A stretch of 64,000 nt of DNA from Nitrososphaerota archaeon. Lineage in GTDB: Archaea; Thermoproteota; Nitrososphaeria_A; Caldarchaeales; Calditenuaceae. This document shows, in pieces, positions 46,053 through 48,134 of the stretch (position 1 is its first letter; the number at the start of each line of letters is the position of its first letter). A model generated the notes under the pieces. That model was not told the origin of the DNA. It saw only the letters and a program-made list of their open reading frames with translations, and ran no database searches. A program made the translations under genes and the position numbers. The DNA lies in the NCBI GenBank assembly GCA_009889515.1, contig WUQR01000139.1, positions 1 to 64,000 on the forward strand, given 5' to 3'.

Positions 46053-46911
46053 AGTTGCTGGAAAATAGCAAATGTTTAAACTTTAATTTCCTATGGGCGT
46101 CCTAACAGACAGAGGTGAGGTGTTATGCGGAGAATTCTTCTCGGAGGTGCTGGCCGAGAATAACTGGGAGATAAGGACAAAATACAGAAGAAAAACTTGT
46201 TTTATTTAAGGCTCTTACCAGCTGTTATCATGTAGTCTGGGCGCCAAAATATGACCCATCTCCCCTATCTCTGAATAAGCCGCTGTTTCTATGAGCCACT
46301 CATACGGCTTCTGGGCTCTATGACGCTTACACAGCCTACCCTTGCAGTCACCTTGTCTGATAAAGTCTTTATAAGCATATACAGTATGTCCCCGTATTCG
46401 TTGTATCCTGTATGGATGCTTTTATGAACCCGTCATCATGCCCGGCCTTATCGATAGACGGTTAGGGATATAATCACCTCAACCTTATCACAGTCCCGAT
46501 TAAACAACTGTTTGAGCGTCTTAATGCTGGCTGTTACTCGGCTGTTATCTCATATCTCAGCTCTGGGGCCTCTTAAACACCCTCAAGCCCCTCTTAATCG
46601 TCCTCACACCCTTAACATCACTCTCATCTGTAATACTGGACTCCTTATCAACGATAGTATCCTCTCTACCTAAGACATCACCCTTATACTACTAACTGCT
46701 CAAGGCCATGGTGAAGTCTAGAAAGATTGCGAAAGCTAGAAACAGGAGTTGTTACTTTCACTGAGGGGTCTAAAAGACTATATAACCTCAATTCCCACTC
46801 TGCTGCTAGTATGGCTTGGGCTGGCATACAGCTAACCCTTGACCAGACTTTTCTCGACTACTTCCTGACAACATGGTGTGTTACTATGTTGATAGCGGGG
46901 GAGATGAATAG
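46053..46911. other. 859-nt AT-rich region without an intact gene
   Basis: No convincing complete gene. It holds the nfo promoter at the left end, an apparent IS200/IS605 tnpA relic from about 46196, and a minus-strand open fragment of about 42 codons near 46580-46690 ending VFKRPQS. A TATA-like CTATATAAC at 46774-46782 points right toward the IS110-like gene, leaving a possible leader of about 105 nt. In that leader GTATG...CATAC and ACAT...ATGT can form hairpins. Base composition differs from the flanking housekeeping genes. Confidence 0.55.
46196..46500 (+). pseudogene. Decayed IS200/IS605-type transposase (tnpA) relic
   Basis: The frame at 46211-46294 reads SCYHVVWAPKYDPSPLSLNK before a stop. 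YHVVWAPKY is the hallmark N-terminal strand of IS200/IS605 Y1 transposases. Further on, VIMPGL (about 46434-46451) in another frame could be the remains of the MPDHVHL motif with the HUH residues lost. Stops and frame changes run throughout, so the gene is dead. The extent is approximate and no terminal hairpins were identified with certainty. Confidence 0.45.
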
Positions 46912-47841
46912 ATGATGGAAATAATGCAGATTCCCGGAAGAGCTGTTAGAAGGTTCTACGTCGATGTTCACAGACTGGCCAATAAAAGGCGTAAGAATAA
47001 GACTGAGGAGAACTATCATGTATACATTGTTGACGGTGAGGCCTTCGGCAAGGCTTCTAAGATCGCCGATATTCCAGCGGAGGCCGGTGATGAGCTCTAC
47101 GTTGATGTCATACCAATAGAACTCACAGACGAGTTCGTTGAGGTGCTGAGAAGGGGCGTACGAGTCTACCACCTTAGAAGGCTTACGATGTTGAGGCAGA
47201 AAAGAGAGGAGCTTAGACTATCTAAGACTGCTAGGAATGACCTCAGAGCCTTAATGAGGGTAGAGAAGAAATGGTTCAGGGAGATTGATGAGGACTTCCT
47301 CGAGATGCGGAGGCTAATCAGCGCATTCCAAGTACTGCTGAGAAACCATCAAAGCTTGTTGAATGGGATGAGGGCTTTGAACAAGGGTGTCGAGAGGGAA
47401 ATCCTGAGGGAGGCCATAAGGTGCACGGAGAGGCAAATGGCGGCTATGGCTGCCAGGATAGTCGAGGAGGCTGGTAGACGAATACCAACCTATAATAAAG
47501 TTGTTGAGGCTCTAGAGATCGCTGGTGAGAACCATCTGCTAGCGAGAGAGGCTCTAGCAGAACTTCTGACCTACGTCGACTTCAACCGCGGCATCGAAAA
47601 AATAAACAACTATGTAGGGCTCTTCAAACCAGCTAAGGGGAGGCTGAAAATATACTATAGGCTACCGCGGCAGGCCCTGCAAAGACTGACCATAGCCTTA
47701 AAGGGCACGAGCACGATCAAGGCAAAGGACCAAGTTCAGGTTATTAAGAGAATCAGAGAAACGGTGCTGACGAGAACCCCGCTAGAGGCTGAGGATCATG
47801 CTGGCCTAGGACAGCAGGGAAAAACCCTTAGGCCGGTATGA
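46912..47841 (+). CDS. IS110-transposase-like protein, key residues missing
   Basis: 309 residues with no cysteine-rich or membrane parts. The layout parallels IS110-family transposases: a strand and acid in YVDVIPIELTDEFVEVLRRGVRVYHL (E70 where IS110 has its E-x-T-G), then LSKTARNDLRALM (105-115) like K-T-D-x-x-D-A-x-x-L, a long helical pair, IPTYNKVVEALE (191-202) like IPGIGPxTAxxLL, and DFNRGIEKINNYVGLFKP (223-240) like the FxxxxxLxxYxGLxP box. The first Asp of KTDxxDA is Ala, and no Ser follows the YVGLFKP box where IS110 has its catalytic Ser. It is either a diverged or domesticated relative or a chance resemblance. It ends inside a strong inverted-repeat structure. Confidence 0.5.
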   Translation: MMEIMQIPGRAVRRFYVDVHRLANKRRKNKTEENYHVYIVDGEAFGKASKIADIPAEAGDELYVDVIPIELTDEFVEVLRRGVRVYHLRRLTMLRQKREELRLSKTARNDLRALMRVEKKWFREIDEDFLEMRRLISAFQVLLRNHQSLLNGMRALNKGVEREILREAIRCTERQMAAMAARIVEEAGRRIPTYNKVVEALEIAGENHLLAREALAELLTYVDFNRGIEKINNYVGLFKPAKGRLKIYYRLPRQALQRLTIALKGTSTIKAKDQVQVIKRIRETVLTRTPLEAEDHAGLGQQGKTLRPV

Positions 47842-47905
47842 TACATGTTTTAACATGTATGGTGGAGAGCTACCATACATGACAAAGACTTTAACATGCC
47901 GGCCT
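47830..47905 (+). repeat. Nested inverted-repeat structure at the 3' end of the IS110-like gene
   Basis: An outer stem pairs AGGCCGGTATG (47830-47840) with CATGCCGGCCT (47895-47905), 10 of 11 pairs plus a G-U. Inside, CATGTATGGT (47854-47863) and ACCATACATG (47872-47881) form a perfect 10-bp stem with an 8-nt loop. ATACATG (47841-47847) can instead pair with CATGTAT (47854-47860), giving a switch-like alternative. TTTAACATG is also directly repeated (47849-47857 and 47890-47898). It covers the stop codon. It could be a mobile-element end, a structured RNA or a terminator. Confidence 0.75.
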
Positions 47906-48134
47906 CTCATGGGGGTTCTTAGATGCTGTCCTGACCGGTGTGGCCCTCAGCCAGCTTACCTTTTTCTTTCTTAATTATTGCGGAACCGCCTCCTATCTTC
48001 TGATTCCTCTGGACTTTAAACCTCCCTTCTACAGATCGGGCATGTCTGTATATATGCAGTAGTAATCCGAGTATTTACTTTCTATTAACGGTTAGATGGA
48101 CACGCCCAGTTATTAGATTCTTGAATGGGGGTTT
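47906..48134. other. Region between folded element and thermosome promoter
   Basis: About 230 nt without an ORF of note. It is moderately AT-rich with T-runs near 47960. I see no gene, tRNA or repeat in it. Confidence 0.4.

Follow-up and report, generated by a model that had tools for sequence, protein, structure and literature searches.

The closest described systems are the insertion sequences of the IS110/IS1111 group (IS621, ISCro4, ISEc11), which carry a bridge RNA or seekRNA and for which RNA-guided target choice and natural redirection between relatives are already known (PMC11208160, PMC11187229). In IS621, D11, E60 and D105 serve the metal, whereas D102, the third Asp, keeps the S241-G242 loop in place within the composite active site (PMC11208158). 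From Caldiarchaeum subterraneum, Sugahara et al. (2012) reported an 'a+b' element with an 813-bp recombination-type ORF and seven homologues, which was polymorphic at a tRNA-Thr locus, was regarded as a putative transposable element and was ascribed to a pNOB8-type plasmid integrase (PMC3293823). In the accessible part of that report, an IS110 link, a guide RNA and a target rule are all absent from the description of the element. Here, a locus was analysed within a 64,000-nt stretch of the archaeal contig WUQR01000139.1, referred to as the window; its features are collected in Table 1. Genomes are denoted by G and loci by L numbers.

A preliminary description, made from the letters of the window, had related the encoded 309-aa protein to the IS110 transposases, with which structure search and profile comparison agreed. 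An AF2 model (input 32 members; pLDDT 90.6, pTM 0.85) was compared to the PDB using Foldseek. The top 11 matches were all IS621/ISCro4 bridge recombinases (E ~1e-5, TM 0.55–0.60), followed by the TasH–tigRNA complexes of TIGR-Tas (E 0.004–0.01), the latter, as regards the Nop domain and its box C/D-type guide RNA, a similarity of fold only. HHalign against eight IS110 transposases gave E = 3e-6 at a probability of 88%. As modelled, the protein is of IS110 type, with RuvC-like, coiled-coil and Tnp fold. Pfam (including PF01548 and PF02371) and NCBIfam profile searches with the window protein, as well as PDB-sequence and Rfam searches with protein and RNA, returned no significant match; PF01548 matched 6 of the 32 members weakly (best E 0.01).

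In the HHalign pairing, D18, D65 and D110 correspond to the first, second and fourth acidic residues of IS110 and A107 to the third, KTARND of the window standing opposite KTDRVD in the profile alignment. The Asp to Ala replacement noticed before was thereby recovered, and the DEDD motif is incomplete. The third Asp is missing in the window clade, where the three metal-ligand positions are retained; in some distant members D is present at position 107, though without the Ser. The Ser-Gly box (S241-G242 of IS621), both residues of which are kept in the IS110 comparison set, is missing from all aligned members, as had been pointed out for the window protein, in which no Ser follows the last box. 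Tyr248 is near-invariant among the aligned members; it directly precedes the helix that comes after the absent Ser loop. The protein is an IS110-like enzyme lacking the catalytic serine, and it therefore probably moves DNA by a route that differs from that of the bridge-RNA recombinase IS110.

The stop codon (47839–47841) is embedded, as already described, in a nested inverted repeat, which is kept in paralogues of 36–55% protein identity. In the predicted RNA of ~160–180 nt, an outer helix, the 5' arm of which is coding, and an inner helix lead to a conserved internal loop; beyond this come a second helix, the variable internal loop and the apical hairpin. Among 20 sequences, 22 of the 39 pairs were changed on both sides, a value that was reached in 0 of 500 shuffles; 63 covariation cells were observed versus 20 in shuffles, and sliding the partners abolished the signal. 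The structured RNA proposed earlier was thus supported by covariation as a 3' structure overlapping the end of the coding sequence, while no support was found for a separate leader RNA; the TATA box reported for the leader was recovered as a TATA-like box (Table 1).

The second internal loop (GGGATA/CCTAGA) is strongly conserved. Both strands of the distal internal loop, each of 6 nt, are hypervariable: five G014 copies that are close relatives were 37% identical in the twelve N6 columns versus 93% in the other RNA columns, and the 26 guide-bearing copies contain 24 distinct guide pairs. Guides were shared in nine pairs of copies among these 26 (six guide 2 only, one guide 1 only, two both); judged from the sequences, the half-guides look as if they could change independently, those shared singly being mostly guide 2 (G002 and G014 copies). 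RNA-model matches were located singly, each with an element copy, and no tandem array was present in the loci inspected. L004, L005, L040, L049, L051, L059, L060 and L062 have another RNA subtype in this 3' position, in which the sides of the internal loop are variable as well, and a further subtype was observed in family f3 (L064–L077).

Table 1. Positions of the element, its protein, its RNA and the target half-sites in the window.
Feature	Position	Strand	Remarks
IS110-fold protein, 309 aa	46912..47841	+	D18, D65, D110 kept; A107 for third Asp; Ser loop absent; Tyr248
Guide RNA region as aligned	47787..47967	+	5' arm overlaps last ~55 nt of CDS; window matches model R1 at 47810-47931
Guide 1 variable strand ACATGT	47843..47848	+	First side of distal internal loop
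Guide 2 variable strand AAAGAC	47884..47889	+	Second side of distal internal loop
TATA-like box	~46778..46785	+	Upstream of ORF, in 5' leader; present, with similar leader, in paralogue L003 (flank alignment)
Whole inserted element	~46080..48070	+	Ends good to a few bases; between target half-sites; absent from the orthologous endonuclease-IV/thermosome intergenic region of G001-G005
Left target half-site AAATGTTTAA	46070..46079	+	Guide 1 (ACATGT) 5/6 plus A/T core
Right target half-site GTATTT	48071..48076	+	Reverse complement of guide 2 (GTCTTT) 5/6; G004 empty site 6/6

A comparison of the locus in relatives for further copies and for element ends, suggested in the preliminary description, yielded both. 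The genome contains five copies in total, the window protein having four paralogues of 36–55% identity, and the congeners G001–G005 contain the endonuclease-IV/thermosome intergenic region without the insert, the ends of which are bounded by this empty site. The window guides predict ACATGT-N4-GTCTTT. The G004 site reads AAATGT-TTAA-GTCTTT (11/12), the other congeners have 9–10 of the 12 guide bases, and the present window flanks have 5/6 and 5/6.

For one RNA subtype, the two 9-mers (N6 plus 3) of each of 16 copies were looked for in the flanks of that same copy. Exact 9-mer matches were found five times on the left plus strand, five times on the right minus strand and never on the other strands, i.e. 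10 on the predicted strands versus 0.14 expected (mismatched pairings 0.07 each). With longer flanks, both halves matched 9/9 in L042, L043, L044 and L047, and 9/9 plus 8/9 in L045 and L046, with no exact match on control strands. Four of the insertions are missing from G017, a congener of G014, where the uninterrupted sites carry the predicted 16-mers (L042 and L044 16/16, L046 and L047 15/16). Counting the window copy, an empty site was found in a related genome for five insertions, and in every one of them the guides spell both target halves around a 4-bp A/T core at 11–12 of 12 nt. For L041 and several G002 copies, no clear guide match was detected in their own flanks. As read from these sequences, the RNA of each copy spells the site at which that copy sits, and the guide differs in nearly every copy.

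Compared with IS110/IS1111, the family is alike in protein fold, in three of the four acidic positions, in natural guide change and, here from sequence alone, in an internal loop that carries two guides, one for each target strand. The geometry known from the guides of IS621 at its 2-bp core (PMC11208160) recurs in the G014 subtype, whose two 9-mers share an overlap of two bases. The RNA of the family is located downstream of the gene as in IS1111 (PMC11187229). Unlike in IS110/IS1111, the Ser nucleophile loop is missing, the third Asp is lost in the window clade, only one variable loop is present, insert ends and orientation are not fixed, and guides differ between almost all copies of a genome. 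There is a second, conserved internal loop, but insert ends vary between copies, and no loop was seen that matches donor ends. Target choice is thus like that of IS110, but several features that define IS110 were not found, and the family is therefore considered a variant and not an IS110 member. With TIGR-Tas (TasH, TasR), the second-best fold match, it shares two 9-nt guide segments for opposite strands; unlike TIGR-Tas, it has no tandem guide array but one RNA per mobile element, placed in a long hairpin.

Of 398 genomes sampled from the phylum, 17 contained relatives, and these 17 belong to a single order, which from its named members appears to be Caldarchaeales; the named relatives are contigs of Archaeon HR01. 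A short-peptide search of IMG/VR gave no relative. Many intact copies carry the same residue changes. Domestication, as previously considered, was rejected on account of the five copies in the genome, up to about 20 matches per relative genome (many truncated or with stops), orthologous empty sites in congeners and near-identical copies at different loci. The family consists of multi-copy mobile elements of hot-spring archaea, found here only in one order.

5' truncation is seen in some copies. In G002, non-autonomous copies of ~650 bp (L133, L134, L138, L140 and L142) have lost internal sequence but retain the left end together with the RNA and the 3' portion of the gene; they have left and right parts in common with full copies. 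The left end of full G014 copies (L043, L044, L046) is formed by an ORF of at most ~190 aa, which lies upstream of the main ORF and diverges from it on the opposite strand. A sliding clamp was suspected for it (C-terminal end ...YQAPRIE) and dropped as unsupported, Pfam and PDB giving no match and AF2 a pLDDT of only 40. Another short divergent ORF is found in the G002 copies L052 and L056. Ordinary IS110 (PF01548) genes or fragments occur in the same order (L149, L152 and L154 in G002 and G021), and the right flanks of L047, L059, L060, L062 and L067 adjoin what read like tRNA genes.

Between the conserved element bodies and the half-sites lies joining DNA, which varies from copy to copy and takes up a few tens to several hundred bases on the right side. 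In L044, this extra right-hand DNA matches a host segment at 72%; in L046, no second copy of it was found elsewhere. Both orientations occur, with guide 2 on the left in L042, L044, L045 and L047, and guide 1 on the left in the window copy, L043 and L046. On sequence grounds, the family most probably represents IS110-derived RNA-guided mobile elements, each copy of which comprises an IS110-fold protein and a 3' guide RNA. It is extremely improbable that these are ordinary IS110 relatives, dead or in decay, whose 3' hairpin is a terminator devoid of guide function. The loss of Ser and one Asp and the lack of a Pfam or NCBIfam match speak for such a reading, but opposed to it are the many intact copies that share these changes, the occurrence of near-identical copies at separate loci, strong RNA covariation and the guide/target matches, those at empty sites included.

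In the proposed mechanism, the 3' region would be transcribed and the protein would bind its RNA, the two ~9-nt internal-loop strands of which would pair with opposite strands of a 16-bp target, N6-(A/T)4-N6. The DNA is inserted, as the sequences show, in the core between the two half-sites. Cutting of the core by the RuvC-like site with its three metal-ligand positions, and joining or copying in of the element by repair, is a plausible step that falls a little short of being probable. Once occupied, the site would be immune to further cutting because its half-sites would lie far apart. In the window clade, the Ser loop and the Asp holding that loop in IS621 are both gone, which was counted in favour of cleavage and repair. 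Variable ends, 5' truncation, both orientations, internally deleted copies and guide sharing likewise appear to suit cleavage and repair better than reciprocal recombination. Only tentatively, the elements may be described as serine-less homing elements, in which the guides spell a 16-bp site for cutting by a RuvC-type nuclease, repair copies the element in, and one or both half-guides are rewritten to the new target.

It is rather unlikely that the protein is a true IS621-like recombinase, in which Tyr248 would replace the serine nucleophile and the second loop or another part of the element would recognise the donor. The near-invariance of Tyr248 and its place ahead of the helix, the strong conservation of the second internal loop and a 2-bp AA repeat flanking the insert in L042, L044 and L047 are consistent with such an enzyme, but the composite active site is partly lost, orientation is variable, and the insert ends are not conserved between copies, so that no fixed donor sequence is visible. 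Considerably less likely still is a spread of the copies through reverse transcription, with the guided target priming synthesis on the mRNA and the reverse transcriptase supplied in trans. The truncation of copies at the 5' end and the additional DNA on the 3' side would fit; however, the element has no reverse transcriptase, the inserts reach upstream past the promoter and include the upstream ORF on the opposite strand, and both ends are common to internally deleted copies.

Returning to Caldiarchaeum, the a3b4 copy of the 'a+b' element lies at the coordinates of L047, and the tRNA beside L047 agrees with the reported tRNA-Thr (PMC3293823, accessible part). The 'a+b' element very likely belongs to the same family as the window element. 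In the published, mostly freely accessible literature searched, no serine-less IS110 relative was found that combines one variable loop with per-copy guides and variable ends. With this family, the RNA-guided DNA systems would gain an IS110-fold protein that has retained a two-strand target guide but not the residues for serine recombination. It bears on the kinship of IS110, TIGR-Tas and box C/D systems, and its 26 guide-bearing copies, in each of which one loop is variable, form a natural collection in which guide change can be studied. It may also explain the tRNA-gene disruptions reported in Caldiarchaeum and, if the elements are indeed homing elements, each copy would carry the address of its own locus.
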